This document shows positions 25,607-50,169 of a DNA stretch of 64,000 nucleotides, one piece after another. The position numbers and the translations under genes were made by a program. Within the stretch, counting starts at the first letter, position 1. Each line of letters opens with the position of its first letter. This DNA comes from Anabaena lutea FACHB-196 (GTDB lineage: Bacteria; Cyanobacteriota; Cyanobacteriia; Cyanobacteriales; Nostocaceae): positions 310,001 to 374,000 of the forward strand of contig NZ_JACJST010000002.1 of NCBI RefSeq assembly GCF_014698305.1, written 5' to 3'. Below the pieces are notes generated by a model that saw only the letters and a list, made by a program, of their open reading frames with translations, did not search any database and was not told where the DNA came from.

Positions 25607-25755
25607 TATAGGACTAATATTTGATTTTTGAAATTTTACGTAGGGTGGGCATTGCCCACGATATCCTGGTTCTGTAAGGCATAGCCCTACCTACACTACT
25701 TAAAATTTTATGGCTACGCCACGCAAGCTATCAAATATCATTTATGATTCCTATA
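25607..25755 (+). repeat. 149-bp MITE-like element, copy 1
   Basis: Starts TATAGGACTAATATTTGAT and ends ATTTATGATTCCTATA, so the ends are imperfect inverted repeats. A 55-bp core (25640-25694) is bounded by GTAGG and CCTAC. Copy 2 at 50021-50169 has the same length; its flanks are the exact reverse complement of these, but its core has the same plus-strand orientation. Confidence 0.9.
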
Positions 25756-25882
25756 GAAGAAAAGATCAAGAATAATTGACCGTTGATAAACACAGATAAA
25801 TCAATGAATTGGATGATTCTGTGCAGCCTCACATAAAATTAGTATTACTCATTTTCAAGTTTTAATTACCACGGAGAAAAAA

Positions 25883-27424
25883 ATGACTCATTGTCATTAC
25901 GACTTCATCATCATTGGTACAGGTGCTGGTGGTGGTACTTTAGCATATCAATTAGCCAGCAGTGGCAAGAAAATTTTAGTTTTAGAACGGGGTAATTTTG
26001 TTCCCAAAGAAAAAGCCAATTGGGATACTCATGAAGTTTCGTACAAAGAACGCTATCGGACTGAAGAACTTTGGTATAAAAAAGATAGTGAAACCATCAA
26101 ACCATTAACTCATTATTATGTAGGTGGCAATACTAAATTTTATGGTGGTGCGCTGTTTAGATTTCGTGAACGTGATTTTGAAACAGTCATTCATCAAGAT
26201 GGTATTTCTCCCGAATGGCCATTAAAATATCAGGATTTTTCACCCTATTATGACCAAGCAGAAAAACTCTATGAAGTACATGGTCAAAGAGGTCTTGATC
26301 CTACAGAACCACATACTAATTCAAATTATCCTTTTCCCCCAGTCAGTCATGAACCTTATATTCAAGAAATTAATTATGCTTTAAAAGATCAAGGTTTACA
26401 TCCCTTTTACTTACCACTTGCTATTAAACTAAATAAGCTTAATCGTCAATTAAATAATTGCATTCGTTGTAAGACTTGTGATGGTTTTCCATGTTTAATT
26501 GATGCTAAATCTGATGCAGATATTAACTGTATATGTCCAGCAATAAAATATAAAAATTTCACATTAATAACTGAAGCAAAAGTAGTCCGTTTACATACTA
26601 GTGCATCTGGTCGAGAAGTAACTGGTGTAGAAGCAGAAATAGCAGGACAACTTCAGATGTTTTCTGGAGATATTGTGATTGTTGCTTGTGGTGCAATTAA
26701 TTCCGCCGCATTATTGCTTAAATCTGCCAATGATCAACACCCCAAAGGATTAGCTAACAGTTCTGATTTGGTAGGTCGAAATTACATGACACATAACTGT
26801 GGGGTGATCATGAGTTTGAGTACTAAGTTAAATCCGACAATTTTCCCTAAAACTTTAGCAGTCAATGATTTTTATTGGGGAGAAAAAAAGTTTAGTTACC
26901 CAATGGGTAGCGTGCAATTACTTGGTAATGTCAATAAAGATAAAATAACTGCTTATGGACCGCCTTTAATGCCACAGTTTATTGCTGAATCTGTAGCTAG
27001 TCATTCTATCTCTTGGTTGATGATAACAGAAGATTTACCCGATTACGATAATAGAATCAGTGTTAATAATAACAAAATTTTTATTAACTATACCAAAAAT
27101 AACCAGATAGCGTTTAATCATTTACTTAACCGTTGGACTGAAGTATTAAAATCAATTACACAATTTCAAATAACCAGACAATTATCTTGGCATATTCCTC
27201 AAAACATGGGGATGAGAGAAGTTGCACATCAATGTGGGACTTGTCGTTTTGGAGTAGATCCAAAAACTTCGGTTTTAGATATCAATTGTCGTACTCATGA
27301 TATCGATAATCTTTACATCGTTGATGGTAGTTTTTTTCCTTCTAGTAATGCTTTAAACCCATCACTAACTATTATGGCAAATGCCTTGCGAGTGGGAGAT
27401 CATTTACTAGCTAGAATCAAGTGA
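25883..27424 (+). CDS. GMC-family oxidoreductase
   Basis: FAD-dependent glucose-methanol-choline oxidoreductase of 513 residues. The N-terminal FAD-binding motif is IIGTGAGGGTLAYQLASSGKKILVLERG. A cysteine-rich insert lies at about 192-215 (CIRCKTCDGFPC). The C-terminal domain has HQCGTCRFG and VDGSFFPSSNALNPSLTIMANALRV, which forms the active-site and flavin-contact region. The family oxidises alcohols to aldehydes or ketones. It has a good ribosome-binding site (GGAG) and lies downstream of the HetN-like SDR. I infer a role in oxidising the long-chain hydroxylated alcohol of heterocyst glycolipids, from position only. Confidence 0.85.
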   Translation: MTHCHYDFIIIGTGAGGGTLAYQLASSGKKILVLERGNFVPKEKANWDTHEVSYKERYRTEELWYKKDSETIKPLTHYYVGGNTKFYGGALFRFRERDFETVIHQDGISPEWPLKYQDFSPYYDQAEKLYEVHGQRGLDPTEPHTNSNYPFPPVSHEPYIQEINYALKDQGLHPFYLPLAIKLNKLNRQLNNCIRCKTCDGFPCLIDAKSDADINCICPAIKYKNFTLITEAKVVRLHTSASGREVTGVEAEIAGQLQMFSGDIVIVACGAINSAALLLKSANDQHPKGLANSSDLVGRNYMTHNCGVIMSLSTKLNPTIFPKTLAVNDFYWGEKKFSYPMGSVQLLGNVNKDKITAYGPPLMPQFIAESVASHSISWLMITEDLPDYDNRISVNNNKIFINYTKNNQIAFNHLLNRWTEVLKSITQFQITRQLSWHIPQNMGMREVAHQCGTCRFGVDPKTSVLDINCRTHDIDNLYIVDGSFFPSSNALNPSLTIMANALRVGDHLLARIK

Positions 27425-27432
27425 AAATCTAT

Positions 27433-27560
27433 TACTCAACGTTGAGTACAAATAAACAGAATAAAAATAGCAGTAATTCATGAATTACTGCTACACAATA
27501 ATAAGGTTTTTAGTCAAATCTTGCGTAAGTACAAATAAATAAAGTCCGCAGGTGCGGACT
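27433..27560. repeat. Cluster of three palindromes after the GMC gene
   Basis: Within 130 bases there are TACTCAACGTTGAGTA (27433-27448, perfect), a 26-base perfect palindrome centred on TTCATGAA (27468-27493), and AGTCCGCA-gg-TGCGGACT (27543-27560). They begin eight bases after the GMC stop codon. Together they could form strong hairpins; one or more probably ends transcription. Confidence 0.75.
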
Positions 27561-27942
27561 AAGGAAATTGGATAAGGTTAAGTTGTCACCAAGAGAGCCT
27601 ACAAGATGTTAGACTTATTTGTATTTTTACTGACAAAATATAAAATATCAAGTCTATCAACGGAAACTTTAGGACATAATTTCAGGAGTTATGTCTGGTA
27701 AAAGGTAATTTTAACTTTTAGAATATCTTAATTTACTATTGTAGATAGTTGATAAAAATAACGTAATTTGCTATTTAGGAAAACAGGTAAGATAAAACAA
27801 GAAATAGTAATTAGGTGATAATTTTTACCAATTACCCCTTATTTAAGAATCATATCCTTAATTTAATCAGCCAAAAAAACAGACATAAGGAGAGGAATTT
27901 TGTCTATTATTTCCTTAATCTCTATATTTTAAGATGAAGAAA

Positions 27943-27970
27943 GACCCCATAAGTGATTACCTATGAGGTC
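27943..27970. terminator. Putative bidirectional terminator hairpin
   Basis: GACCCCATA pairs with TATGAGGTC across a ten-base loop, with one mismatch. T-rich sequence follows on the plus strand and A-rich sequence precedes it. It lies between convergent genes. Confidence 0.45.
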
Positions 27971-28370
27971 TATAGATTTTTAGGCACAGTTGAGGACAAT
28001 ACCAATAGCGCTATCAATTTGAGTAGGTCATTTCTCGACTGAGAACACTATGGCAAAGTTTATAGGTATCTCGAACTTAGCTCCTAAAAGTCCACAGGTC
28101 AATTACTGCAATACTCTACCAGAACTAATCGAGAATATGTAGCCAAAGTGGCTATTGTTTCTAGATTCATTAGTAAGCTGATCATTATTTAAACTTCAGC
28201 AGAACGTCTTTAAAACATTACGAATTATGCAAATTAAAGGCACATTAGCTTAATTAATATGACTTACGTATTAAGTACACAATTAGGGGCAATAACCTTC
28301 GGAAAGCAAGCTAAATGAATTGCCCCTACAGTAAATCAAGGCTTTTGCGTCATTTGTGCAACAGTTCTAA

Positions 28371-29639
28371 TTAAGAATGATTAGACAATTCTAACTTTTC
28401 GGGTATTTCAACTAACTCGTACAGCTTATCTTCAAATTTTTGAGTGCATACCGACCAATCAAATTCTAATATGGAGGGTCGAGCTTGCTGAGATAATTGT
28501 GCTTTGAGGTCAGGATTTTCCAGAATTGCAATTATCTTTTCGGCAAAATCTTTGGGGTTGTTGGGTTGAGCCAGAAAGCCGTTGTAACCGGGTATCACCT
28601 GTTCAGCCGTTGAGGGAGCAATAGCAGCAACGACAGGAGTTCCAGAAGCTAAAGCTTCGTTATTTGTAGTGCAGAAGTTTTCGGTGACTGAAGGGTTAAT
28701 AAAAACATCTGCTCTAGCGAACCATCCTAAAAGTTGTGTGCCGTGAGACTCACCCCAAATAGTAACACCAGATTCGTAATTTTGAGCGCGACGACGAATT
28801 TCTGCATCTAAAGGACCGCTACCCACAATAACCAAATGAACATCAGGAATTTTAGCAGCAATTAATGGATATGCATCTAAAAGTTGAGTGACATTTTTTT
28901 CTGCGGTAATGCGTCCCACAAAGAGAATTGTCGGCCGTTTATCCGTGGGAATTGGATCATAAGTGATGTTCCGGGGGTGAAACTTTTCACAATTAATTCC
29001 TTGATAGGGAAGGTATTCACCTGTTTGGCATTTTAGCTTTTGATATTTAGCTAGTTGTTCTCTCGAAGAAAATAAATTGAGATTATAAGACTCACTAAAT
29101 TGCTTAACTAAAAGTGGCACAATGGGACTGACTAAATTGAAGAATACATCTCCTAAGTAATATCTAATATAGGCAACAATATCCGTATGAAAGATGGATA
29201 TAATCGGGGTTTTACTTTTTTTGGCGTATTGAACTCCCACAGGGCGACCATAACCTTGTAAGAAAAATGAGTACAACCCTCTCATCTGCGCTGCTTCTTC
29301 AACTACGATGATATCAGGTTGAAATTTTTCTAGTAATTGAGTATCATTCCAATGGCGATAATGCAAGGGTTGGGGTAGAGATTTGTAGAAAATAAGTGGT
29401 TTTGTGGGGAAAGCAAATGATGAAAAGTTGGGGAAAGATTGTAGTTCATCTAATCCCGGCATGGGGCGATTACCAACGGCTTTAGGATATAGATTATTAA
29501 TTTCTGGGTGAATAAGAAAAACTTCATGTCCTTGCTCAAGCAACCAACGAACACGCTGATGTACTGCAACTGAAACTCCTGTTAAAAACGGAGCAAATAA
29601 GCCTGTGAATAATGCTATGCGAAGAGGTTGCTTTTTCAT
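28371..29639 (-). CDS. hglT: Family 4 glycosyltransferase, probable HglT
   Basis: GT-B glycosyltransferase of 422 residues. The N-terminal domain begins LRIALFTGLFAPFLTGVSVAV. The C-terminal donor domain has RPTILFVGRITAEKNVTQLLDA, LVIVGSGPL and VFINPSVTENFCTTNNEALASGTPVVA, the EX7E nucleotide-sugar motif. In Anabaena, HglT adds glucose to the long-chain alcohol of heterocyst glycolipids and lies at the end of the equivalent operon. The position here, last gene of the hgdB-hgdC operon, supports that name. The start is ATG 29639 rather than TTG 29645. Confidence 0.72.
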   Translation of the reverse strand: MKKQPLRIALFTGLFAPFLTGVSVAVHQRVRWLLEQGHEVFLIHPEINNLYPKAVGNRPMPGLDELQSFPNFSSFAFPTKPLIFYKSLPQPLHYRHWNDTQLLEKFQPDIIVVEEAAQMRGLYSFFLQGYGRPVGVQYAKKSKTPIISIFHTDIVAYIRYYLGDVFFNLVSPIVPLLVKQFSESYNLNLFSSREQLAKYQKLKCQTGEYLPYQGINCEKFHPRNITYDPIPTDKRPTILFVGRITAEKNVTQLLDAYPLIAAKIPDVHLVIVGSGPLDAEIRRRAQNYESGVTIWGESHGTQLLGWFARADVFINPSVTENFCTTNNEALASGTPVVAAIAPSTAEQVIPGYNGFLAQPNNPKDFAEKIIAILENPDLKAQLSQQARPSILEFDWSVCTQKFEDKLYELVEIPEKLELSNHS

Positions 29640-29708
29640 AATCAAAGGAAATAGTTCATAAAAATGTTGGCTTTTGTATTTTTTAGTTAACCAAATACCA
29701 GCATGAGA

Positions 29709-30968
29709 TTACAGAGAATGTTTGCCATCAATTGGTTGATCTAACCATTCATAAGGATGATATTCAACTAAGCGAATATTCCATGGCCCTTGAATTTTAT
29801 AAGTAAGTCCGCGCCATGTAACTGTTGACATCCACAGAGAAGATAGCATTGCTAATCCATAAATCCACTGTGTTAGAGGAATAGCAATTAACATTTTTAT
29901 GATTGTAGTCAGTGACACTTTAGCAATTACTTGACCTTGAGAGCGAATTACTTCTTGTACTCCTAATTCCATCACCAGCATCAATAAGAGTAATCCAATT
30001 GTGTAGATGCTATAGGATTTTAATAAGAAGACTGCTCCTTCCCATTCTGTTGCTAACAACAATCCTAGAGCTAATATGATTGTTACAGTCGGGAATAGAA
30101 TACTAGAAACAGCATCACTTACTAAAGCCAACCAATTTGGGTGATAAAGTCGGGAGCAAAGTATTAAGCGTTTGAGAGATGCAAATAAAGTAACTAAATC
30201 GCATTCTTCTCGATTAACCATTAATAAAGAAGGGACGAATTTTATTTTTAAACCGTGTTTTTTGATGACTTTATGTAGCAGCATATCATCACCAAAAGCT
30301 TCTCCCCACTTCTCAAGTAATTCTGTTTGGTGTAGCACTTCTGTTTTAATTGCTAAACTCCCACCCCAAGGAACTTGAAACAGGAACATTTGGACGACGG
30401 TCGAGACATTGCCGGCATAGCGTACCAACGACCCCCAATACTTACCTGTGGGTACATACCAACGGTTTCCTGTTGTTAATCCCACTTTGTCATTGGTGAG
30501 AGGACTAACTAATTCTCGTAACCAATTAGGATGAACAATTGTATCTGCATCTACTAAAGCAAGTACTTTGTAAGAATCATCTAAATCTGAAACAGCTTGC
30601 ACTAAAGAACTGCATTTGAGACTACAATTATGGCGGACGGTTCTTAAAGTGCTAATTTGGACATTAGTTGCACCGATTTCTGCGATCGCTTCTTTGGCAA
30701 TTTTAAAAGCTGGATCTTCTGGACTGTCAATGATCAGCTTTAAATCGTACTGTGGGTAATTTTGTTTTAAGAGCGATCGCACACAGTTAGGTAAAAACGG
30801 ATCAGCACCTCGTAAACAAAGAATTACTGCCGTTTTTGGTAATTGGTCATCCGATAATACAGGTTGTTTATATGAGCGCAAATACCATAAAAATAGCAGC
30901 GTTAAACATACCTGAATAACTAGCCAACTTATCAAAGACTTAGACAGAAATGTCATTACATCTTGCAT
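29709..30968 (-). CDS. Membrane glycosyltransferase, family 2
   Basis: A 419-residue GT-A enzyme anchored by an N-terminal helix and about four C-terminal helices. Motifs are AVILCLRGADPFLPNCVRSLLKQNYPQYDLKLIID, LALVDADTIVHPNWL (DxD) and GEAFGDDMLLHKVI; the layout resembles ceramide glucosyltransferase-like proteins. It is in the minus-strand operon between the DUF2141 gene and hglT, so it may modify or elongate the glycolipid headgroup or act in envelope polysaccharide synthesis. The acceptor is unknown. Confidence 0.78.
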   Translation of the reverse strand: MQDVMTFLSKSLISWLVIQVCLTLLFLWYLRSYKQPVLSDDQLPKTAVILCLRGADPFLPNCVRSLLKQNYPQYDLKLIIDSPEDPAFKIAKEAIAEIGATNVQISTLRTVRHNCSLKCSSLVQAVSDLDDSYKVLALVDADTIVHPNWLRELVSPLTNDKVGLTTGNRWYVPTGKYWGSLVRYAGNVSTVVQMFLFQVPWGGSLAIKTEVLHQTELLEKWGEAFGDDMLLHKVIKKHGLKIKFVPSLLMVNREECDLVTLFASLKRLILCSRLYHPNWLALVSDAVSSILFPTVTIILALGLLLATEWEGAVFLLKSYSIYTIGLLLLMLVMELGVQEVIRSQGQVIAKVSLTTIIKMLIAIPLTQWIYGLAMLSSLWMSTVTWRGLTYKIQGPWNIRLVEYHPYEWLDQPIDGKHSL

Positions 30969-31069
30969 GAAATCTATAGTCTCCGGCAGAATTAGGGTAG
31001 ATGGGGAGATGAAGAGATAAGGAGATGGGGAGAATTACCTGTTCCCCATTCCCTTTTCCTAGTCACTGA

Positions 31070-31537
31070 TTAGGGATCGAGAGAATATTTAAGTGAGATA
31101 TTAATAGTGGTATTTTTTGTCATTTTAAAACTTGAATTGCGGAACTTTGGTGTACCAGTTTGAACAGAAACAGTTGGATTTTTAGAAATTCCAAAACCTT
31201 CTTTAGGAATCCCAAAAAAGTCCTTATTTAGTTTGCGATCACCATTTTGATCATCAACAACTGCAACAGCATAAGTTCCAGGTTTTAAACCAGAAAATAC
31301 TTTCTTTACAGAAGTACCATTAATCTTAGTGCAGCCATTTTGAACTTCACTAGAATTACTCATGGGAAATCCTTTCTCAGAATCATAAACTCTGAAGCAG
31401 ATTTCACCTGTTTTGTGACGTACCCCATTGACTATTACAGTCAGTGTGGTGTTTGGTTCTGCATGAACTGTTTTAGCGCAACTTAGGCTTAATAAAGTTG
31501 CCAGAAACAGATAATGAAGTTGAGAAATTTTCAACAT
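31070..31537 (-). CDS. DUF2141 secreted protein
   Basis: A 155-residue protein with a signal peptide ending around KTVHA and a DUF2141 domain: GEICFRVYDSEKGFP, GLKPGTYAVAVVDDQNGDRKLNKDFFGIPKEGFGISKNP. Members are small periplasmic beta-sandwich proteins of unknown function, often beside glycosyltransferase or carotenoid genes. Its start overlaps the end of the upstream glycosyltransferase by 65 bases, so the two are likely coupled. Confidence 0.78.
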   Translation of the reverse strand: MLKISQLHYLFLATLLSLSCAKTVHAEPNTTLTVIVNGVRHKTGEICFRVYDSEKGFPMSNSSEVQNGCTKINGTSVKKVFSGLKPGTYAVAVVDDQNGDRKLNKDFFGIPKEGFGISKNPTVSVQTGTPKFRNSSFKMTKNTTINISLKYSLDP

Positions 31538-32534
31538 ATGAATTGATGCCAGAGTAATCGGTTAAAATTGTAGATTTGGTTTTTTTGAACTTAGTTGACA
31601 GCAGTATTTTGGCAGCTATCAACAAATCTTTAATTAATAAAGATTCTGTGCCAGATAGCTTTTTAACTATACTAAAGTAACAAAATACTTGCTCAAAAAA
31701 ACTCAAAGAACTTTGACTAATAGAAAGTATATATTCCCGCAAAATTCGCCAATGAGGAAATAAAATTTTGCCCTTATTCTTTGAGTCGAACCAGACTGAA
31801 TACTCATAAAAATCTGGTAACATATCTAATGAGTATTGAGGATTTTCGTGAGTAAATGCCAAATAATTTGGGAAAAACATACTCAGAGATTGCTGAGAAT
31901 GACTCCTCGCAAAAAATAAGTATTCAGGGATTTCATAAAACTGCCCGACCATACCCAGTCTTAATAATAAAATCCCATCTGCATTACCGTGACCACCCAT
32001 AGGAGGAATTTTTTTCAAAGCACTTTGACGAATTACACCATACATTTGATAACACAAATGTTTGGTTAGTAGTTCATGAAACCTCAAATGTGGTTTTGCT
32101 GAATCAGTGAGGAGTTTAATGCCGTAGTTTTGCAGAAATTCACCCTGTTCATCAATAAAAGATGTGTGAGAATGGCACAAGATATAATTGGGATTTTCTT
32201 CAAGTACCTGAATACATTTACTGAGAAAATCAGGAGCGTGTAAATCGTCGTAAGCTGCCCATTTAAAGTATTCACTATTGGACAATTCAAAAACGCGATT
32301 GAAGTTACAAGCACAACCAATATTATTCGCATTTCGATAGTAACGAATACGTTTATCTTGTGCAGCGTAGGTTCTACAAATTTCTTCAGTATTATCTGTA
32401 GATGCGTTATCTGAGATGATTAACTCAAAATCGCCAAAAGTCTGGTTTAACAAAGAATCTAGAGATTCTTGTAGAAATTTATCGCCATTATATACAGGTA
32501 ATCCAATGCTTACTTGTGGCTGATATTTGTACAT
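31473..32534 (-). CDS. Glycosyltransferase, family 2
   Basis: Soluble GT-A glycosyltransferase of about 353 residues. It shows VSIGLPVYNGDKFLQESLDSLLNQTFGDFELIISDNAS at the N-terminus, then NIGCACNFNRVFE and FKWAAYDD (DD metal-binding motif, about residue 95). No membrane helices are evident. It is the fourth gene of the hgdB operon, between the epimerase and DUF2141 genes. The acceptor is unknown. I start at ATG 32534; TTG 32540 is also in frame. Confidence 0.8.
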   Translation of the reverse strand: MYKYQPQVSIGLPVYNGDKFLQESLDSLLNQTFGDFELIISDNASTDNTEEICRTYAAQDKRIRYYRNANNIGCACNFNRVFELSNSEYFKWAAYDDLHAPDFLSKCIQVLEENPNYILCHSHTSFIDEQGEFLQNYGIKLLTDSAKPHLRFHELLTKHLCYQMYGVIRQSALKKIPPMGGHGNADGILLLRLGMVGQFYEIPEYLFFARSHSQQSLSMFFPNYLAFTHENPQYSLDMLPDFYEYSVWFDSKNKGKILFPHWRILREYILSISQSSLSFFEQVFCYFSIVKKLSGTESLLIKDLLIAAKILLSTKFKKTKSTILTDYSGINSYVENFSTSLSVSGNFIKPKLR

Positions 32535-32557
32535 ATGCAATTACCCAATAAATTAAC

Positions 32558-33562: not shown

Positions 33563-33620
33563 AGTGAATTATGGAAAGGTAAATATGTTGACTGAAATTG
33601 CGGAATTTAATCTAGATTAA

Positions 33621-34799: not shown

Positions 34800-34857
34800 A
34801 TATTTTGTTATTTGTTATTTGTCAGTTGTCAGTTGATCGACAATCAATGACTAGTGA

Positions 34858-36066: not shown

Positions 36067-36386
36067 ATTTTTATTCCAAGTATTTTCTGCTCAGGGATAG
36101 TTGTAATAGTTATATCCGCAGATTATCTAAAATAACTTATCCCCCATATTTGTAGTTTTAGTCAGTGGATATAGCGTTTAATAGTTGGCTGATGAACAAG
36201 TTGAAAGATAAAGTTATCTGCGTCCATCTGCGGTTAATTCTTTCTTGCTGTATCTCATGAATGTGGGAAATGCTATCAGCTTAATTAGGATTTGTAGCCG
36301 ATATAGATAAAAAGATGAACCACCAAATCAACAGTGATATTACTTCCAAGTATCCTCAGTTTTATGCTTAATGGGCATTTGGTAAA

Positions 36387-36400
36387 GTAGCGTAAAATAC
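36387..36400. promoter_or_regulatory. Putative NtcA-binding site
   Basis: GTAGCGTAAAATAC matches the NtcA consensus GTA-N8-TAC exactly. It is about 320 bases upstream of hgdB and 1.6 kb upstream of hglE. No well-placed -10 hexamer is obvious 22 bases to either side, so activity is uncertain. Confidence 0.4.
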
Positions 36401-41000: not shown

Positions 41001-43316
41001 ACTTTCATAGAAAATTCAGTCAAACCAAACAACATTCCAGCACAGACAACCAACGGTCATAACGGTAACGGACACAAAAAAACCCCTGTAATTAGCACCC
41101 CACAACAGCTTCAGATGACTCCTGCACCCCGTTCAAATCAAGCAATCCCAGAATTATTACCTACAGCACGCCAAGCAGTTGCACAGCGTCCAGGAGGGAA
41201 AATGGAAACACCAGATAAAAATATCAACTTCCAACAGGTTCTCGAAAGTTTAGAAAACCTCCTGAACCAGTTTCAACACAACCAAAGTGATAACTTACAA
41301 ATTCATGGGACTTATCTAAGTCATCAAATGGAATACGCCAAAACGTTCTTCCAACTGATGCAACAACAGAACGCCCTATTTATCAATAGTAAATCTTCCG
41401 AAACCGCCCAACTCAAACAAGTTGTTATGGAAAGTTTTGAGCGCAGCATGATGCAGTTTCACAACCAACAAAGTGAAACCCTCCGCATTCATGAACAATA
41501 TCTGCGGGAACAAGTAGAATACACCAAAAACTTTTTCCAACTCATACAACAAGAATATTCTCAACTAATTGCCGGTACAGAAACAACTCAACCTTTAATT
41601 CCCCCCCAACTCACAGAAACACACACCAACAGTTTACGGGAGTTGATAACAGAAGCACCTGTAACAGAAACAGTTGTTCCTCCTACCGCCAAAATCGTAG
41701 AAACCCAACCCGTAATCGAGCCAGTAGTTGAAGAAGCTGCACCTGTAATAGCAGCAATTCCCCTTCCTAAAATTGCAGAACCTACACCAGAACTTACCCC
41801 AGTTGTAGAAACTCAACCTGAATCGGTAGCACCTGTAGCTTTAATACCCGAACCAGCAACCACCAACATTAATATTGATGACATAGGTCAAAACCTCCTA
41901 ACCATAACCAGCGAGAAAACAGGCTATCCCATCGAAATGCTAGAACTCGACATGGACATGGAAGCCGACCTAGGAATTGATTCCATCAAACGGGTAGAAA
42001 TTCTGGGAGGATTGCAAGAACTATACCCCAACTTACCCAAACCAAACTTAGAAGAACTAGCAGAAAAACGCACCATTGGTCAAGTTGTCGAGTATCTACA
42101 AAAACAGGTGACAGGTGACAAGTTAACAGAAGAAATACAGGTGACAGGTGACAGGTTACAGGTGACAGAGAAGAAAGTAGAAGAAGCAAAGGAAGAATTA
42201 CCTATTACCTCTTCTCAGTCCCTAGAAGAAAGCGACGAATACGCAGATTTAGGTCAAACCCTGTTAAACATCACCAGTGAAAAAACAGGCTACCCAGTTG
42301 AGATGCTCGAACTAGACATGGACATGGAGGCCGACTTAGGGATTGACTCCATCAAACGGGTAGAAATACTGGGTGCAATGCAAGAAACGTACCCCAACTT
42401 ACCCAAACCAAATATAGAAGAATTAGGCGACCTGCGAACAATTGGACAAATAGTAGACTACCTCCAAAAGCTGGTGGGAGGTGAAAAAAAAAAGCTTGAT
42501 TTTGACCCGGTAGGGGCGGGGTCTCCCCACCCTCTTAATCCCTCCGTTCCAGAAGTAGTGGATTTAACCCCACCGCCAATAGTAGACCCAAATCTTCCCC
42601 GTCGCCCAGTAAAACTAAAAACCTTACCCCGACCGGATTTTTGGGAATGCAAACTACCAGAGGGACACATTAGTTTAATTACTGATGATGGTTCCCTCAC
42701 CACCACCAAACTAGCTCACGCACTGGTTGAACAAGGTTGGAAAGTAGTAGTTCTGAGTTTCCCCCAAACATTAGTTCCTCAACAATTGCCATTACCCCTA
42801 GGTGTTAGCCGCGTGATCATGGCAAATATGAGCGAACAACATCTACAACTACTATTACAAAGCATAACTACTCAACATGGAAAAATTGGGGCATTCATTC
42901 ATCTTCATCCTCAATTCAACACAGAAAACACAGGTAAAATTTCCTATCTAGAAACAGAAAAAGCAATAGTCAAACAAGTGTTCTTGATAGCCAAACATCT
43001 CAAACCAACATTGAACACAGCCGCTGATTTAGAAGGAAGAGTAAGCTTCTGTACAGTAGCCCATCTTGACGGCACATTTGGGTTAGAACACAAAGAAAAC
43101 TTTGGAGTTATCGGTGCTGGCTTATTTGGATTAACCAAAAGTTTGAGATGGGAATGGCCAAAAGTATTCTTAAGAGCAATAGACTTAAGCCCAACCTTAG
43201 ATCCTCACCAATCAGCAGAATATATTGTTGCCGAATTGCATGATTCCAACAGATATATAGGTGAAGTTGGCTATAGTTCACAAGGAAGAGTCACCCTCAT
43301 AGCTAAACCCGAATAA
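38001..43316 (+). CDS. hglE: Heterocyst glycolipid polyketide synthase HglE (KS-AT-ACP-ACP-partial KR)
   Basis: Large PfaA-like synthase that builds the long acyl chain. Numbering is from ATG 38001, preceded by AGAGGA seven bases upstream. KS: IAIVGMASLLP, Cys221 in VDAACASS, His356 (EAHGTG), His396 (GHTKAAAG). AT: FSGQGSQYLEMG, Ser693 in GHSFGE. A linker of about 400 residues contains a duplicated amphipathic helix unit. Two ACPs follow with Ser1328 and Ser1450 (DLGIDSIKRVEILG). The C-terminus (about 1560-1771) resembles the structural half of a ketoreductase; the catalytic half is in the next gene. In-frame upstream starts at 37902 (ATG) and 37863 (TTG) would add a coiled N-terminus. Linkers carry repeat-derived segments. 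Confidence 0.9.
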   Translation: MKSETSISTNKINRQLQQNPIAIVGMASLLPKARNLREYWRNIVNKTDCITDVPETHWSVKDYYDPNPRTPEDKTYCKRGGFIPEVDFNPMEFGIPPSILEVTDVSQLLSLVVAKEAMEDAGYSESREFNRENVGVILGVAQAKQLGIPLSARLEYPIWEKVLKSSGLSDDDTKVIVDKIKTAYIKWDENAFPGMLANVVAGRIANRLNFGGTNCVVDAACASSFGALKMAISELIEYRSDMMLTGGVDTDNSIMAYISFSKTPAVTPSENVKPFDAKSDGMMLGEGIGMIVLKRLEDAERDGDKIYAVIKGIGTSSDGRYKSIYAPRKEGQVKALERAYDDAGFSPATVGLMEAHGTGTMAGDPTEFGSLRDFFTQYDDKKQHIALGSVKSQIGHTKAAAGAASLIKTALALHHKILPPTINITEPNPKLDIQNSSFYLNTETRPWIKAEGEAPRRAGVSSFGFGGTNYHVVLEEYEAEQKQAYRLHNAASEVLLFGSTPAELITKLEATFNNLQSNEGERHYSQLIQECQSLVIPKTAARIGFVAENIQEACKLLKVSIDLLKNKQSAVSWEHPQGIYYRAAGMELGGKVVALFSGQGSQYLEMGREAVMNFPALRRLYGQMDGLLIKDNLQPISQIVFPNPTFEEEEKTAQIAALQRTEYAQPAIGVFSAGLYSIFQQAGFKSDFVAGHSFGELTALWAAGVLTEEDYLFLVKSRGQAMAAPKDPDHDAGSMLAVKEDISKVEAVLRHFPQVAIANFNSPTQVVLAGPTAEIKKIQQKFQELGYGAVLLPVSAAFHTPLIAFAQKSFAIATKSVDFQNPKVPVFSNVTGKQYPQEPSGIQRVLEGHLSSSVMFKQEIENIYAAGGYCFVEFGPKRILTNLVKDILGDRPHLTVSLNPSTQKNSDRSLREAAIQLRVMGMALSNLDPYQLPPVIPPTATKKALNVKLNGVNYVSEKTRNAFTEALQDGFTVGAGSPRPRSPRPLTLPESPRPLTPQPETFIENSVKPNNIPAQTTNGHNGNGHKKTPVISTPQQLQMTPAPRSNQAIPELLPTARQAVAQRPGGKMETPDKNINFQQVLESLENLLNQFQHNQSDNLQIHGTYLSHQMEYAKTFFQLMQQQNALFINSKSSETAQLKQVVMESFERSMMQFHNQQSETLRIHEQYLREQVEYTKNFFQLIQQEYSQLIAGTETTQPLIPPQLTETHTNSLRELITEAPVTETVVPPTAKIVETQPVIEPVVEEAAPVIAAIPLPKIAEPTPELTPVVETQPESVAPVALIPEPATTNINIDDIGQNLLTITSEKTGYPIEMLELDMDMEADLGIDSIKRVEILGGLQELYPNLPKPNLEELAEKRTIGQVVEYLQKQVTGDKLTEEIQVTGDRLQVTEKKVEEAKEELPITSSQSLEESDEYADLGQTLLNITSEKTGYPVEMLELDMDMEADLGIDSIKRVEILGAMQETYPNLPKPNIEELGDLRTIGQIVDYLQKLVGGEKKKLDFDPVGAGSPHPLNPSVPEVVDLTPPPIVDPNLPRRPVKLKTLPRPDFWECKLPEGHISLITDDGSLTTTKLAHALVEQGWKVVVLSFPQTLVPQQLPLPLGVSRVIMANMSEQHLQLLLQSITTQHGKIGAFIHLHPQFNTENTGKISYLETEKAIVKQVFLIAKHLKPTLNTAADLEGRVSFCTVAHLDGTFGLEHKENFGVIGAGLFGLTKSLRWEWPKVFLRAIDLSPTLDPHQSAEYIVAELHDSNRYIGEVGYSSQGRVTLIAKPE
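40919..40996. repeat. Dispersed GC-rich repeat inside hglE, copy 1
   Basis: Repeats of GGGCGGGGTCTCCCCGCCC and GTCTCCCCGCCCTC in tandem. They are in frame and encode a Gly/Ser/Pro/Arg-rich stretch (VGAGSPRPRSPRPL) between the AT and ACP domains. Confidence 0.85.
42100..42174. repeat. Tandem CAGGTGACAGGT repeat inside hglE
   Basis: Three copies of a unit close to CAGGTGACAGGTGACA encode QVTGDKL/QVTGDRL/QVTEKK in the linker between the two ACP domains. The same repeat type, in other orientation, encodes the C-terminus of the MFS transporter near 2,420-2,460. Confidence 0.8.
42509..42545. repeat. Dispersed GC-rich repeat inside hglE, copy 2
   Basis: GTAGGGGCGGGGTCTCCCCA followed by CCCTCTTAATCCC. 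It is in frame, encoding VGAGSPHPLNP, in the linker after the second ACP. It is the same family as 40919-40996. Confidence 0.8.
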
Positions 43317-43438
43317 CCAGTAGGGTGGGCATTGCCCACCTCACAAAAACTCCTCTCTTCCTCTTTGCGCCTCTGCGCCTCTGCGAGAGAAAATCATAAA
43401 CTTATTCATCAACACATAATCAATTATAAATTGGAAAC
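43317..43438. repeat. Short intergenic region with two dispersed repeats
   Basis: GTAGGGTGGGCATTGCCCAC (43320-43339) matches one arm of the 55-bp core of the 149-bp elements. It is followed by CTCTTTGCGCCTCTGCGCCT, a repeat that recurs at 62413-62441 and 63751-63779. Confidence 0.7.
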
Positions 43439-45172
43439 ATGACAGCAACACTTCAAATTAATCCATCATCTGTCTTCGTCGTCAGTGGTGGAGCCAAGGG
43501 AATCACTGCACAATGCACCATTAAATTAGCACAAAACCAACCTTGTAAATTTATTCTGCTTGGTCGTTCTGAAATCACCACAGAACCAGAATATGCTCGT
43601 AATTGTTTAGAAGATTCCGCCTTGAAAAAACGCATCATGGAAAATCTGATTTCTCAAGGTGAGAAACCAACACCCATGATGGTACAAAAAATATTTAATG
43701 ATATTAATTCTAGCCGAGAAATTAATAAAACCTTGGCAGCTATTGAAGCAGCAGGTGCAAAGGCAGAATATATTAGTGTTGATGTTACAGATACCGTAAC
43801 ATTGAAAGCCAAACTTGGCGCTGTCGTTCAAAAGTTTGGTCAAATTACAGGCATTATTCACGGTGCTGGTAATTTGGCTGATAAATTAATTGAAAAGAAA
43901 ACACAAGAAGATTTTGAAAAGGTTTACACCGCTAAAGTTCAGGGTTTAGAAAATCTACTCGCTTGCGTTAATATCCAGCAATTACAGCATTTAGTTTTAT
44001 TTTCTTCTGTGACTGGTTTTTATGGGAATATTGGTCAAAGTGATTATGCTATCGCTAACGAAATTCTCAACAAATCAGCCCACCTCATCAAACAATCTCA
44101 TCCTCAATGTCATGTAGTGGCAATTAATTGGGGTGGTTGGGATAGTGGTATGGTGACACCACAATTAAAAAAGGCATTTGCAGAAAGGGGAATTAGTATT
44201 ATTCCTCTGGAAGTGGGTACACAAATGTTAGTTAATGAACTGCACCCTGCTTATCAAGATAATACACAAATTGTCATTGGTAGCACGATGATTCCACCGG
44301 CAATGCCTTTAGATTTACAATTGCGAACCTATCGCATTCGGCGACGAATGACATTAGCAGAAAATCCATTTTTGTATGATCATACAATTGCAGGTTCTCC
44401 AGTATTACCAGCTACTTGTGCTAAATCTTGGATGGTTAATGGTTGTGAAGAAATTTATCCAGGCTATACATATTTCAGTTGTCAAGATTTCAAAGTTTTG
44501 AAAGGAATTACTTTTAACTCTAGTTTGGCTCATGAACATATTCTAGAAATACAAGAAGTCTCCAAAAGCGATGGTAATTTTGTTGAATTTCAGACCAAAA
44601 TTTTGAGTAAAACCCCTGAAGGAAGAACTCATTATCATTTTAGCGCTCTCATCAAAATAGTCCGCAAAATGCCAGAATCTCCCATTTATGAATCAGTGGA
44701 TCTCAGGGAAGATAACATTGTCACTACCACTGGTAAAGGTTTTTATCAAAATGGAGATTTATCCTTATTTCATGGTCCAGCATTCCAAGAAATTACTAAA
44801 GTCTTAAATATTAGCCCAGAAAAACTTACAGCCGAATGCTGTTGGCAAGAAATCACAGCCAAACAACAAGGACAATTCCCTGTTAAATGGCACAATCCCT
44901 ACATAATTGATTTGAGTACTCAAACTCTATGGCTATGGTTAAATCATTTCCATCAAGAAGTGTGTTTACCAGGACAATTAACATACTGTGAACAATTTTT
45001 AAGTGTTCCAGCCAATGTACCTTTTTATGTGTCTTGTGAAATTATTAGCAAAACCGATACTGGCATAAATGCTAATTTCTTGATTCATAATCGTGAGGGA
45101 AAAATATATTCACGTATTCTTGGAGCAAAAGCAGTTATTTGGCCAATGAAAATGCTCAATCGTAAGCAATAG
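43439..45172 (+). CDS. Ketoreductase catalytic half plus dehydratase (HG synthase component)
   Basis: A 577-residue protein. Residues 1-260 are the catalytic Rossmann half of a ketoreductase: VFVVSGGAKGITAQC, VLFSSVTGFYGNIGQSDYAIANEIL (Ser and Tyr), NWGGWDSGMV. The C-terminal part is a dehydratase-like hotdog domain beginning FLYDHTIAGSPVLPATC, with the DHxxxGxxxxP active-site motif. Together with the end of HglE it makes a complete KR, then DH. In the Anabaena locus this position is held by genes named in the hglF/hglG series; I do not assign a letter. Domain order follows the PfaA-type KR and fits processing of the beta-keto intermediate. Confidence 0.82.
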   Translation: MTATLQINPSSVFVVSGGAKGITAQCTIKLAQNQPCKFILLGRSEITTEPEYARNCLEDSALKKRIMENLISQGEKPTPMMVQKIFNDINSSREINKTLAAIEAAGAKAEYISVDVTDTVTLKAKLGAVVQKFGQITGIIHGAGNLADKLIEKKTQEDFEKVYTAKVQGLENLLACVNIQQLQHLVLFSSVTGFYGNIGQSDYAIANEILNKSAHLIKQSHPQCHVVAINWGGWDSGMVTPQLKKAFAERGISIIPLEVGTQMLVNELHPAYQDNTQIVIGSTMIPPAMPLDLQLRTYRIRRRMTLAENPFLYDHTIAGSPVLPATCAKSWMVNGCEEIYPGYTYFSCQDFKVLKGITFNSSLAHEHILEIQEVSKSDGNFVEFQTKILSKTPEGRTHYHFSALIKIVRKMPESPIYESVDLREDNIVTTTGKGFYQNGDLSLFHGPAFQEITKVLNISPEKLTAECCWQEITAKQQGQFPVKWHNPYIIDLSTQTLWLWLNHFHQEVCLPGQLTYCEQFLSVPANVPFYVSCEIISKTDTGINANFLIHNREGKIYSRILGAKAVIWPMKMLNRKQ

Positions 45173-45332
45173 TAGGTTAAGCGACAGCGCAACCCAACAA
45201 ATTCACCTGAATCCTTACATAATAACAGCGAAAGTTGTTAATCCTTGCCGATTGGGGGAATAGCGTAAATCCTTAAAAACTAAGGAAATTTTTATTTCCT
45301 TAACGTCTTATGCCCCAACGAGGATTTCAACA

Positions 45333-46694
45333 GTGGAAAAAATAGCGATCATTGGGTTATCTTGCCTCTTTCCAGATGCTAATAATCCTGAAGAGTTTTG
45401 GCAGAATCTCAGCGCAGAAAAAGACTCAACTTCATCTGTAAGTGTTGCTGAATTGGGAGTAGACCCCGCCATATTCTACGATGCTAATAAGGGGAAACCG
45501 GAAAAAATTTACTTCCAAAAAGGTGGATTTATCCGCAATTTCAACTTTGATGCTAGTGAGTATAATTTACCTGCAACATTTGTCCAAGGTCTGGATAATA
45601 CTTTTAAATGGTCACTGTATGCTGCTAAACAGGCAATTATCCACAGTGGTTATTGGGGAAATCAATCTGCTCTCTCGAAATGCGGCGTAATTTTAGGAAC
45701 TCTTGCTTTACCAACTAAAGCTTCTAATCAATTGTTTGCTCCCATTTATCAGCAAACTATTGAACCTGCGATTGGTGAACTTTTACAGGAAAAAGACTTC
45801 CGTTTAGGTGGTTCATTAACTGCTACGAAAGCATCTCCATATAATGCGATGGTGAGCGGCTTACCTGCTGCTATAATTTCCCGTGCATTTTCTCTTTCTG
45901 GAACTCATTTCTGTATAGATGCTGCTTGTTCATCAGCATTTTATGCCATTAAATTAGCATCCTATTATCTGCAATCTGGTAAAGCTGATTTGATGTTAGC
46001 TGGTGCTATTAGTTGTGCAGATCCGTTGTTTTTAAGAATGTTGTTTTCCGGGATTCAAGGATATCCAGAAAACGGTATTAGCCGTCCTCTAGATAAAGCA
46101 TCACGCGGGTTAATTACCTCCGAAGGCATAGGAATGGTAATGCTCAAACGCTACAGTGATGCTGTCAGAGATGGAGACAAAATTCTCGCAACAATCTGCG
46201 GTAATGGTCTATCTAATGATGGTAAAGGTAAGCACCTCCTCAGTCCCAATGCTCACGGACAAACCACTGCATATCAAAGAGCTTATGCTGAGGCTAAACT
46301 TAACCCCCAAGCAATTGATTATTTAGAGTGTCACGCTACCGGTACTCTGTTGGGAGATACCACTGAATGCAACTCAGTTGAAGGCTTTTTCGGTCAATAC
46401 CAAGCAACGCCTTTGGTGGGTTCAGCTAAAACTAACGTCGGTCATTTACTCGTTGCTGCTGGCATGGTGGGGATAACAAAGACGATTTTAAGTATGTCTC
46501 ACGGTGTTATTCCTGCAACTATCAATGTCAGTGAACCTGTGGGTTCTGAAAATAATGTGATTTCGCCTCAAAACATTGTCAGAACTGCCACACCTTGGCC
46601 GAGTAAAGGAAATAAGTACGTAGCTTTAAGTGCATTTGGTTTTGGTGGAAATAACTCTCATTTAATTCTTGAACAGGGGGAAGTCAGCAAATGA
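45333..46694 (+). CDS. hglD: Beta-ketoacyl synthase HglD
   Basis: Single KS of 453 residues with IAIIGLSCLFPDANNPEEFW, active Cys199 in FCIDAACSSA, His in ECHATGT, and GHLLVAAGM; all three catalytic residues are present. The start is GTG 45333 with an upstream CGAGGA. The stop overlaps the hglC start by four bases (ATGA), so HglD and HglC are probably made and act together as a KS/chain-length-factor pair, as in PUFA synthases. The name follows the Anabaena gene order hglE, hglD, hglC. Confidence 0.85.
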   Translation: MEKIAIIGLSCLFPDANNPEEFWQNLSAEKDSTSSVSVAELGVDPAIFYDANKGKPEKIYFQKGGFIRNFNFDASEYNLPATFVQGLDNTFKWSLYAAKQAIIHSGYWGNQSALSKCGVILGTLALPTKASNQLFAPIYQQTIEPAIGELLQEKDFRLGGSLTATKASPYNAMVSGLPAAIISRAFSLSGTHFCIDAACSSAFYAIKLASYYLQSGKADLMLAGAISCADPLFLRMLFSGIQGYPENGISRPLDKASRGLITSEGIGMVMLKRYSDAVRDGDKILATICGNGLSNDGKGKHLLSPNAHGQTTAYQRAYAEAKLNPQAIDYLECHATGTLLGDTTECNSVEGFFGQYQATPLVGSAKTNVGHLLVAAGMVGITKTILSMSHGVIPATINVSEPVGSENNVISPQNIVRTATPWPSKGNKYVALSAFGFGGNNSHLILEQGEVSK

Positions 46695-49600
46695 GTCTTC
46701 AAGAAAATATGACTGCAAAAATGGCAATTGTAGGCATGGATGCCTTTTTCGGTGAATGTGATCAATTAGATGCTTTTGAGAGCAGCATTTACGACGGAAA
46801 ACAGCATTTTATTCCCCTGCCAGAAAAAAGGTGGCATGGTATTAATGAGCAAGAAACATTACTGCAAGAGTACGGTTTAGAAGCCGGAAAAGTACCCCAA
46901 GGTGCATATATTAGAGATTTTGAAGTTGATACTTTAGCTTACAAAATTCCCCCTAACGAAGTTGAAAAAGTTAACCCGCAACAACTTTTATTATTGAAGG
47001 TGTGCGATCGCGCCCTCAAAGATGCAAAAATACCCGAAGATGGTAATGTAGCGGTCATTATCGCTGCGGACACAGAATTATCTGTACACCAACTACAACA
47101 ACGTTGGAATTCAGCTTGGCAAGTTAAAGACGGTTTAAACGCCGCAGAAATCGCCTTACCTCCCGAAAAAATTGCCCAACTAGAAACCATAATTAAAGAT
47201 AGTATTCACCACCAAGTTGATTTGGGTGAATATCTCAGCTATGTCGGCAATATTATGGCCAGTCGCGTTTCTTCGTTGTGGAATTTCTCAGGCCCCTCAT
47301 TCACTCTTAGCGCTGTAGAAACTGCCGCATTTAAAGCTTTAGAACTCGCACAAATGCTACTAGCGACAAATGAAGTAGACGCAGTTGTTGTTGGTGCTGT
47401 TGACTTAGCCGGTGGTGTGGAAAATGTCTTACTCCGCAGTCAATTCGGAAAAATAAATACAGGCATTAATACCTTAAGTTTTGATCAAAACGCCGACGGT
47501 TGGACTGTGGGAGAAGGTGCAGGTGCAGTTGTCCTCAAACGTCATGATACAGCTTTGGAAAATAGCGATCGCATCTATGCAGTCATTGACGGTATCAGCA
47601 TCGGACAATCTCCCTCAATGGCTGTAGACGAAGCGACCATTAGCCAAATCTGCAAACAAGCTTTTCAACAAGCGGGAATTCAACCCACAGAGGTAAATTA
47701 CCTGGAAGTCTGCGGTAGTGGAATTCCCGCAGAAGACGAAGCCGAAATTAACGGCATTCTCCAAGCTTATCCCCCCGTTGGTAACGGTTTACACTGCGCC
47801 ATTGGTAGCGTCAAAGCCAATATCGGTAACACCTTTGTCGCTTCGGGAATAGCCAGCTTAATTAAAACTGCCCTCAGTCTCTACCATAGATATATTCCCG
47901 GAACCCCCAATTGGTCTGGTGTCAAAACACCGCAAGTATGGGAAGGTAGCCCTTTCTACGTTGCGACCGAATCAAGACCTTGGTTTTCACCAAAAGAAGG
48001 CAGATGTAGAATTTCCGCTATTAATAGTATCGGCTGTGATGGCTCTTTTGCTCATGTCATTTTATCAGAAGACACCCATCAAGAAGAACGGGTCAGCCGC
48101 TATTTAGAGTCACGACCTTTTTATCTTTTTCCTATCGCTGCTGATGATTATGCCACTTTGTTTGCAGGTTTAGATAATTTGCAACAAAACATTGAAAATG
48201 CTGATAATCTTCAAGCTACTGCGAGTCAGACGTTTGTTAAATTTCAGCAGCATTCAAATGCTAAATATGCCTTATCTATTACCGGACGCAACCACAAAGA
48301 ATTACTCAAAGAAATTAACTCGGCGCGTAAAGGTGTAAATATTGCCTTTGAAAAAGGTACAGATTGGCAAACTCCTCTTGGTAGTTATTTTACACCAAAA
48401 CCACTTGGTAAAAATGGAGAAATTGCCTATATTTATCCTGCCGCAGTTAATTCCTATGTGGGCATGGGGCGGACTTTATTCCGTCTTTTTCCCAAATCTT
48501 TCGATGACTTAATCATCAAAAGTCTTTACAAACGTGCTGCTGATGTGGAACTACTTGTTTTTCCCAGAAGCCTGAGCAAATTGTCAACACGACAACTAGA
48601 AACTCTAGAAAAAAAATTGCTTGATGATTCTCTGGCTATGTTTGAAGCCGAAGTGCTTTTTACCAGAATGATCACGACAATTATCAGCCAAGATTTTCAA
48701 GTTAAACCTAAATATATCTTTGGGTATAGTTTAGGTGAAACAAGTATGATGGTTGCTCAAGGAGTGTGGAGCAATTTTTATGAAGTCAGTCACACCTTTA
48801 ATTCCTCAGCTTTATTTGGTGATAGATTATCAGGCCCCAAAAATGCTGTGCGTGAGTATTGGGGACTACCAAAAGCATCCTCAACTTCTGATAATAATTT
48901 CTGGAGTAACTACGTTCTCATAGCCAGTCCTACCCAGGTCAAAGAATGTTTAAAAGATGAAAATCGCGTCTACCTAACTCAGATTAATACACCAGAAGAA
49001 GTATTAATTGCTGGTGAACCAGCCGCTTGTGAGCGAGTAATTAAAAAGCTTGGTTGTAACGCTTTTCCAGCACCTTTTGATCATGTGATTCATTGTCAAA
49101 CAATGCAATCAGAAGCGCAAGAATTGGAAAAACTCTACACTTTACCAGCACAAACAATTCCCGGTATTACCTTTTATTCCGCTGCCGAGTATCAACCAAC
49201 TACACTTGATAGTCAAGTAATTGCTCATAACATTGCCAAAGGATTATCGCAACAACTCGATTTTCCCCGCTTAGTTAATCGTGTCTACGCAGATGGAGCT
49301 AGAATCTTCATTGAAGCAGGTGCTGGTGGTGTATGTTCTCGTTGGATAGATAAAATTCTTGGCAACCAAGAACACATCACCGTATCCCTAAATCGTCGCG
49401 GTATGGATGACCATACATCACTTGTTAAAGGACTAGCAAAATTGCTCAGTCATCGAGTGAATTTGAACTTAGATCCACTCTACAACTTATCCTCAAAAAC
49501 TGGCAATCAAAATCAAGCGACGCTGAAAAAAATTACCCTAGGTGGTAATTCTATGACTACTGCCATATTGAGTGACGAAAACCGCAAACTTTTCTCCCAT

Positions 49601-50011
49601 AGCAATTTTCAAAATCAGCAGCCAAATCTTTCTAATTACCGAGAGTATAAAATCATTAATTCTCTCCAAAGCAATAATCAAATTAGCCCCAGTGAAATTT
49701 ACCCTCAGCCAGAAAACATTGTCATGAAAACTATCATTGATAACTGTTTTGAATCTAGAGAAAACGTACAATCTTCTGAGTTAACCGCAACTTTACAGCC
49801 AACTAATCAACTCATTCAAGACTCCGAACCGACAATCAGCATGAATGATTTTAAAACCCATCAGTATCAAAAACTGAGTATCAATAATTCCAAATTGACT
49901 AAAGCCCACATCAGCTTTTTAGAAGCCAGACAAGACTTCAGTAAGCAAATGAGCGAAATCATTCAACTGCAATTAACCTGCGCGCAAAACTTGCTAAACG
50001 AAGAAACTTAA
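46691..50011 (+). CDS. hglC: HglC: chain-length-factor-like KS plus acyltransferase
   Basis: A 1106-residue protein. The N-terminal KS fold (about 10-460) has SFTLSAVETAAFKALELA at the active site, where the Cys is replaced by Glu210, so it cannot condense and looks like a chain-length factor. An acyltransferase-like domain (about 560-930) keeps Ser680 in GYSLGETSMM. The C-terminal 150 residues are low in similarity to known domains but end with a helix (AHISFLEARQDFSKQMSEII) resembling those in the HglE linker. It acts with HglD. ATG 46691 overlaps the hglD stop. Confidence 0.82.
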   Translation: MSLQENMTAKMAIVGMDAFFGECDQLDAFESSIYDGKQHFIPLPEKRWHGINEQETLLQEYGLEAGKVPQGAYIRDFEVDTLAYKIPPNEVEKVNPQQLLLLKVCDRALKDAKIPEDGNVAVIIAADTELSVHQLQQRWNSAWQVKDGLNAAEIALPPEKIAQLETIIKDSIHHQVDLGEYLSYVGNIMASRVSSLWNFSGPSFTLSAVETAAFKALELAQMLLATNEVDAVVVGAVDLAGGVENVLLRSQFGKINTGINTLSFDQNADGWTVGEGAGAVVLKRHDTALENSDRIYAVIDGISIGQSPSMAVDEATISQICKQAFQQAGIQPTEVNYLEVCGSGIPAEDEAEINGILQAYPPVGNGLHCAIGSVKANIGNTFVASGIASLIKTALSLYHRYIPGTPNWSGVKTPQVWEGSPFYVATESRPWFSPKEGRCRISAINSIGCDGSFAHVILSEDTHQEERVSRYLESRPFYLFPIAADDYATLFAGLDNLQQNIENADNLQATASQTFVKFQQHSNAKYALSITGRNHKELLKEINSARKGVNIAFEKGTDWQTPLGSYFTPKPLGKNGEIAYIYPAAVNSYVGMGRTLFRLFPKSFDDLIIKSLYKRAADVELLVFPRSLSKLSTRQLETLEKKLLDDSLAMFEAEVLFTRMITTIISQDFQVKPKYIFGYSLGETSMMVAQGVWSNFYEVSHTFNSSALFGDRLSGPKNAVREYWGLPKASSTSDNNFWSNYVLIASPTQVKECLKDENRVYLTQINTPEEVLIAGEPAACERVIKKLGCNAFPAPFDHVIHCQTMQSEAQELEKLYTLPAQTIPGITFYSAAEYQPTTLDSQVIAHNIAKGLSQQLDFPRLVNRVYADGARIFIEAGAGGVCSRWIDKILGNQEHITVSLNRRGMDDHTSLVKGLAKLLSHRVNLNLDPLYNLSSKTGNQNQATLKKITLGGNSMTTAILSDENRKLFSHSNFQNQQPNLSNYREYKIINSLQSNNQISPSEIYPQPENIVMKTIIDNCFESRENVQSSELTATLQPTNQLIQDSEPTISMNDFKTHQYQKLSINNSKLTKAHISFLEARQDFSKQMSEIIQLQLTCAQNLLNEET

Positions 50012-50020
50012 TCAAATATC

Positions 50021-50169
50021 TATAGGAATCATAAATGATATTTGATAGCTTGCGTGGCGTAGCCATAAAATTTTAAGTAGTGTAGGGTGGGCAATGCCCA
50101 CGATATCCTGGTTCTGTAAGGCATAGCCCTACCTACGTAAAATTTCAAAAATCAAATATTAGTCCTATA
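50021..50169 (-). repeat. 149-bp MITE-like element, copy 2 (flipped core)
   Basis: Starts TATAGGAATCATAAATGATA and ends ATATTAGTCCTATA. The outer 61 bp on the left and 33 bp on the right are the exact reverse complement of copy 1. The 55-bp core (50082-50136) is instead in the same plus-strand orientation as in copy 1, with one A/T change. It lies between hglC and the PfaD-like gene. Confidence 0.9.

Follow-up and report, generated by a model that had tools for sequence, protein, structure and literature searches.

The window, a stretch of 64,000 nucleotides of the Anabaena lutea FACHB-196 genome, contains two 149-bp elements in inverted arrangement, copy 1 (copy A) at 25607-25755 and copy 2 (copy B) at 50021-50169. 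Both are intergenic: copy 1 has a short-chain dehydrogenase gene on one side and a GMC-oxidoreductase gene on the other, and copy 2 is flanked by a ketoacyl-synthase and a PfaD-like gene. Aligned with the reverse complement of copy 1, copy 2 is identical to it over its first 61 and last 33 bases, and the central 55-base cores (25640-25694 and 50082-50136), bounded by GTAGG and CCTAC, agree at 54 of 55 positions on the plus strand. We refer to the core of copy 1, which is flipped relative to the outer element, as state R, and to that of copy 2 as state F. This geometry, including identical flanks and co-oriented cores with a single A/T difference, had been described in an earlier note and proved exact on recheck. 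It is not a product of chance: GTAGGGTGGGCAATGCCCAC, allowing up to three mismatches, has seven matches at four places in the window where 0.00 are expected, and the element end has four matches against an expected 0.04. The only mismatch between the cores is a T at 25652 in copy 1 and an A at 50094 in copy 2, a position that forms the apex of the arm A palindrome GTGGGCA-N-TGCCCAC. As an A/T swap at this apex equals an inversion of the hairpin tip, the one-base difference may reflect hairpin-tip inversion. The features are listed below, together with their status in three relatives of the window strain (genome G000): G004, taken as Anabaena catenula FACHB-362, G003, taken as Trichormus sp. 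NMC-1, and G002.

25607-25755, minus strand: copy 1, read as a MITE; TA at both ends, the target duplication; empty TA site in G004 with contiguous flanks
50021-50169, plus strand: copy 2, read as a MITE; TA at both ends, the target duplication; missing in G004, G003 and G002
25640-25694, plus strand: REP-dimer core of copy 1, 55 bp, state R
50082-50136, plus strand: REP-dimer core of copy 2, 55 bp, state F
50082-50101, plus strand: arm A of copy 2, a GTAG-tagged palindrome; 25640-25659 in copy 1
50102-50115, plus strand: 14-nt loop of copy 2, GATATCCTGGTTCT, loop family T1; 25660-25673 in copy 1
50116-50136, plus strand: arm B of copy 2, GTAAGGCATAGCCCTACCTAC; 25674-25694 in copy 1
50094: arm A apex base, A; T at 25652, the only difference between the cores
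50045-50066, plus strand: 22-bp module ATAGCTTGCGTGGCGTAGCCAT in the left half of copy 2; 25710-25731 in copy 1; some copies lack it
50144-50169, plus strand: right end TTCAAAAATCAAATATTAGTCCTATA; the IS630-family insertion sequence at G000:C22:26564-27725 has an identical right end

The 22-bp module is missing in copies L021, L028 and L033. All four combinations of module presence and core orientation occur in T1, and the short forms may be deletions.

We read the 149-bp units as MITEs of an IS630-family insertion sequence, because on contig C22 of the window strain's genome a DDE_3 transposase of the IS630 type lies between inverted end motifs at 26564 and 27725. This insertion sequence has the 26-nt right end of the MITE, a PF13358 match of 56.7 bits between its end motifs (G000:C22:27179-27613), and two overlapping open reading frames that could be joined by a frameshift. 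We infer that the IS630 enzyme transposes the MITE. Searching the whole genome with the 149-mer gave at least 59 matching pieces, based on the best 40 of 163 candidates scored. The right-end pattern, with up to three mismatches, matches 70 times in G000, 46 times in G003 and 68 times in G004, and the reversed pattern, used as a control, has no match in any of these three genomes. A search of a plasmid collection returned one partial match, in Fischerella sp. NIES-4106.

Comparison with the relatives identifies the empty insertion sites. At the site of copy 1 in G004 the flanks join cleanly at a single TA (GCA-TA-GA), whereas in G003 and G002 the element is missing but the region has diverged. 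At the site of copy 2, G004, G003 and G002 all have the flanks joined with no element between them; the junction in G003 has a single TA (ATC-TA-TC) compared with two in the window, and that in G004 lacks approximately four further bases. Empty sites with one TA confirm a TA target-site duplication for the IS630-family-derived MITE, and because the sites are empty in sister species, both window copies are recent TA insertions. The flanks of 21 further copies were compared with G004 and G003, and a partner stretch was obtained for 17 of them (the others being L006, L007, L023 and L034). For seven of the 17 (L002, L003, L017, L021, L026, L028 and L033), G004 or G003 has an empty site whose junction is clean or almost so, the remaining partnered copies being occupied, at contig ends or unclear. 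The MITE family has been active after the divergence of these species. The flanks at the empty sites are contiguous and co-oriented (copy 1 in G004; copy 2 in G004, G003 and G002), and therefore the present order of the 24-kb segment is ancestral. The idea raised earlier, that the inverted pair could flip the 24-kb island, is thus unsupported, and with no sign of it at the empty junctions we dropped inversion of the segment by the element pair.

The 55-bp core represents a GTAG-tagged REP dimer composed of arm A, the 14-nt loop and arm B. GTAG is located at the outer end of each palindrome, and the two units are oppositely oriented (GTAGG...CCTAC). The cores fold more stably than most shuffled versions, at z scores of -2.0 and -2.6, with 11 and 2 of 200 shuffles folding as well, and the core is predicted to be able to self-fold as single-stranded DNA. 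Single REP palindromes are found outside the MITE at 43320 and 53483 in the window. Genome-wide there are 110 REP matches with up to one mismatch when both strands are counted, so that one palindrome may count twice, and many of those listed stand apart from the elements found. The dimer pattern, in contrast, has eight matches in the genome, all eight inside the outer element. No clean coreless copy of the T1 lineage with joined outer arms was found among the best 40 of 135 candidates scored, and the one outer element that seems to be without a core, and so might point to excision, is the diverged copy L049. When arm A is read from its GTAG tag, the apex base is T in 45 and A in 40 of 85 contexts, and never C or G, and single mismatches elsewhere in the same 15-mer are transitions in 26 of 32 cases; as the contexts are related copies, this A/T pattern is suggestive only. 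The cores of L013 and L103 are identical.

In order to tabulate core orientation relative to the flanks, 113 right ends were gathered from four genomes, and the 52 with a readable loop were typed. The 61 left out comprise 55 in which no loop could be recognised, one that was L105 read on its second strand, and five removed by hand as spurious or one-sided matches (L018, L042, L168, L174 and L175). The 52 typed elements divide into loop families T1 (F3/R7), T2 (F10/R5), T2b (F2/R2), T4 (F2/R7), T3 (F0/R12), T6 (R1) and T7 (F1), with orthologues entering as separate elements, so that the counts are not independent. Half cores account for seven of the 52, all of them T2 or T2b. Restricting the count to full-length cores (n=45) gives T1 F3/R7, T2 F8/R2, T2b F2/R0 and T4 F2/R7, and the window strain's genome alone has T1 F2/R4, T2 F4/R2 and T4 F2/R3. 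Both states are thus present in T1, T2 and T4. On a tree of the outer sequences, loop family requires 10 changes compared with a mean of 31.0 after shuffling (none of 200 shuffles being as low), whereas orientation requires 12 compared with 15.1 (5 of 200 as low). Given these numbers, the loop is passed on together with the outer element, and its direction is nearly, but not wholly, free of the outer lineage. Because the tree is poorly resolved (good support for 6 of its 46 inner branches) and orthologues are counted twice, we claim no more than that at least one flip took place in each of T1, T2 and T4. On this comparison the core flip is real and recurrent, the centre of the element having been reversed more than once.

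The orientation of the core also differs at one orthologous insertion. L013 in this genome (C9:60188-60446) and L096 in A. catenula (C38:15125-15274) occupy an identical site as judged by their flanks and have in common a private end variant, TTATTTCTATA, yet the loop is inverted between them. A simple flip of L013 would put arm B at the place where L096 in fact has arm A, so gene conversion from another copy at L096 is possible. L013/L096 is the one flipped set of six flank-aligned orthologous sets with comparable loops; the loop is unchanged in L009/L095, L012/L122, L128/L133, L031/L109/L131 and L045/L151, the last paired by its right flank only. Three further pairs, judged by short flanks only, are likewise unchanged (L010/L104, L016/L106 and L035/L102). 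At the orthologous site L012/L122 one arm has changed type and the loop has not flipped, and at L043/L099 a single palindrome stands in this genome in place of the whole dimer.

A wider contig scan of other Nostocales, in which at least 101 places were read in at least 100 stretches (including A. catenula and Trichormus copies already counted), revealed several REP families inside the same outer palindrome type, as well as longer-looped REPs within the same palindromes. In MAG I3-5_bin-073, one loop is present in both directions within the same outer element (L220 and L279); opposite loops were seen by eye in L255 and L262 too. A loop within one REP arm is inverted in Tolypothrix campylonemoides L212 compared with L204, L214, L234 and L270, and in Nostoc S13 L189 compared with L229, L235, L242 and L248. 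Inversion seems to act at several nested hairpin levels.

The earlier note had offered two readings of the window pair, in-place inversion of the core between its short inverted ends, and two insertions of a nested element, oppositely oriented. The first is borne out by both orientations within the same outer and loop families and by L013/L096. The second holds for ancestry, in that a REP dimer is nested in a MITE, but not for opposite insertion, as loop family follows the outer lineage; the sequences favour in-place inversion over repeated opposite insertion. We consider it probable, though well short of certain, that the elements are MITEs with a REP-dimer core that is flipped in place by template switching, both states then being spread by transposition. 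This reading starts from the identity of the element, its insertion at TA, the two orientations within lineages, and the opposite loops and arm changes at orthologous sites. A non-autonomous 149-bp MITE, moved by the IS630-family transposase and inserted at TA, would bring the GTAG-tagged REP dimer along as its core. As the dimer arms are imperfect inverted repeats, the single-stranded core could fold into a hairpin, and during replication the nascent strand would occasionally switch template across the hairpin and back, so that the core is copied reversed in place and, sometimes, both arms are made alike. Transposition of MITE copies in both states would then have given rise to the two window copies.

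Template switching between imperfect inverted arms is, by analogy, the likeliest mechanism. Switching between imperfect inverted repeats has been reported both to invert spacers and to homogenise arms, in one case within the same event (PMC8604942), and in chloroplast spacers recurrent inversions between inverted repeats are described as common (PMC2903610). We favour it because both parts of this published signature are present: a spacer inverted in place between inverted repeats at L013/L096 and in both states in T1, T2 and T4, and arm homogenisation at one site, L012/L122, and at L013/L096. Several observations speak against this mechanism. In 22 of 22 cores arm B stays on the loop's GGTTT side, so the asymmetric core is inverted as one block, whose ends fall inside a stretch of 5 bp. 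If switch points were scattered at random within the arms, one would expect more chimeric arms than the 2 of 106 detected by a strict pattern (L116 and L272), and the fixed position of arm B together with the rarity of chimeras therefore places the switch points or cuts in the outer GTAGG/CCTAC. Half cores without arm B are found in both directions (L110 and L111 versus L014, L016, L106, L108 and L117) despite having no long inverted arms. Two more observations against it are the single flipped set among six orthologous sets and family T3, which was never flipped (12 of 12 in state R). By eye, L028 also looks chimeric, and it is too mutated for the strict pattern.

The confinement of the flip to the GTAGG/CCTAC tags, the constant association of arm B with its loop end and the half cores in both directions are what would be expected if a RAYT cut the core at the GTAG tags and rejoined it either way, which would make it a module that can be inverted or reinserted under the direction of its tags. 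An intact RAYT of 180 aa is encoded in the genome (NF047646, 210.1 bits compared with a cut-off of 80), and GTAGG-tagged REPs flank its gene. However, the REPs beside it are of another sequence type, GTAGGTTGGGT, and of the exact core-REP motifs tried none is located within 1.5 kb of the RAYT gene; a cognate RAYT flanked by the same REP was not found, the single RAYT detected being that with the GTAGGTTGGGT-type REPs. In addition, hairpin tips and arm loops flip too, with no need of a GTAG cut, and cut-and-rejoin is not expected to homogenise arms. We therefore regard a RAYT-driven flip as unlikely, although worth keeping in view. A stricter form, in which the core is a miniature invertible module that a RAYT cuts and rejoins in place without moving it, while the carrier MITE is spread by another transposase, we hold to be unlikely; if true, a single 149-bp unit would be acted on by two transposition systems of unrelated kinds.

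A single flip per loop family, with the remaining pattern arising by transposition of both forms and gene conversion between copies, is improbable. The data force no more than one flip or more in each of T1, T2 and T4, the tree is weak, and L096 could have been converted from an L007-like copy. Nevertheless, orientation is far less clustered on the tree than loop family, the window copies combine an identical outer sequence with opposite cores, and such a history accounts for the number of events but not for the origin of a flip. Independent, opposite insertion of REP dimers at the same spot of different MITE copies is already disfavoured and very improbable, for although REPs exist outside the MITE and the outer palindrome type carries several REP families across Nostocales, a mixed pool would not give loop families that follow the outer lineage in both orientations, all eight matches to the dimer pattern lie inside the outer element, opposite loops are found at one orthologous insertion (L013/L096), and the candidates scored included no clean coreless T1-lineage copy.

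The many near-identical copies offer a natural replicated experiment on how hairpins drive inversion in bacteria: a few related genomes between them contain cores in both states, changed arm types and empty sites. The family also links the TATAGGA palindromes that carry REPs in Nostocales to a parent of IS630 type, and it cautions against treating the orientation of the loop or core of such repeats as an ordinary phylogenetic character. In open-licence PMC papers we found no account of these elements switching the orientation of their cores. The parts and the process are each of a known kind, and their combination seems undescribed as far as that literature reaches.

IS630-family MITEs such as Nezha have IS630-type ends and a TA duplication, are approximately 150 bp long and have no coding capacity; the MITE described here, likened to Nezha by description only, adds an inverting REP-dimer core. 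Small dispersed repeats nested in Nostoc minitransposons were reportedly described by Elhai et al. in 2008, and the likeness, again by description only, is that of very small repeats nested in minitransposons. The small inversions of chloroplast trnH-psbA (PMC2903610) and the spacer inversions of yeast (PMC8604942) resemble the present case, as presented in those reports, in that spacers flip recurrently and arms are made alike; here, however, inversion takes place within a dispersed mobile element, and asymmetric arms flip together with the loop over 55 bp. With REPIN/RAYT systems (PMC3116915), for which Nostoc punctiforme was among the genomes studied, our elements share a hairpin-capable REP doublet and a RAYT in the genome, but the copies have IS630-type ends and TA duplications, and RAYT action on the core REP is putative. 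A further likeness is to Anabaena variabilis, in which many GTAG-15 REP dimers are reported within TATAGGA palindromes (BMC Genomics 2013 14:522, PMC3733652), a paper that also names Nezha as a cyanobacterial MITE. The outer ends of our elements agree with the palindrome consensus given there, TATAGGAnTnnnATTTGATTnnTGAAA--TTTCAnnAATCAAATnnnAnTCCTATA, and both have a GTAG-tagged dimer inside and a cyanobacterial host. GTAG-15 REPs have loops of 9-15 bp (PMC3733652), compared with a one-base arm apex here and 14 nt between the arms, so the REP family may differ and the two are likened by description; the outer palindrome fits, but on account of the loop size we do not assign the core to GTAG-15. 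The nesting of a REP dimer in such a palindrome is therefore already known in kind, and in the part of PMC3733652 that deals with the A. variabilis palindromes no tie to an insertion sequence is made and core orientation is not discussed. To that picture the present elements add an IS630 parent, insertion at TA and a core that flips.

The insertion sequence that shares the ends of the MITE, the repeat modules and the RAYT gene are located as follows, where G000 is the genome of the window and C a contig.

G000:C22:26564-27725, IS630-family insertion sequence (locus L141), sharing its ends with the MITE
Window 50045-50066 and 25710-25731, 22-bp module ATAGCTTGCGTGGCGTAGCCAT within the MITE's left half
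Window 43320-43344 and 53483-53507, single REP palindromes of the same kind as in the core, not in any MITE
G000:C1, about 525790-526332 (L056:1468-2010), intact RAYT gene with REPs on its flanks

The insertion sequence contains two ORFs of 177 and 194 aa, whose overlap lies close to a stretch of A and may reflect a programmed frameshift. The 22-bp module is present in many MITE copies and absent from others; it could represent a small dispersed repeat that has become nested within the element. At locus L013 (G000:C9:60188-60446), the left half of the MITE carries an insert of ~110 bp that is absent from the orthologous copy in the sister genome, G004. Two MITE copies directly adjoin head to tail at L137 (G004:C13, about 88023-88250), with their terminal TATA either common to both or abutting.

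Half cores, in which arm B is missing, are found in either orientation with respect to the outer element (L110 and L111 versus L014, L016, L106, L108 and L117). The single palindromes in the window lie directly after polyketide-like cluster genes. The REPs flanking the RAYT gene are of the GTAGGTTGGGT type, and differ in sequence from the core REP.
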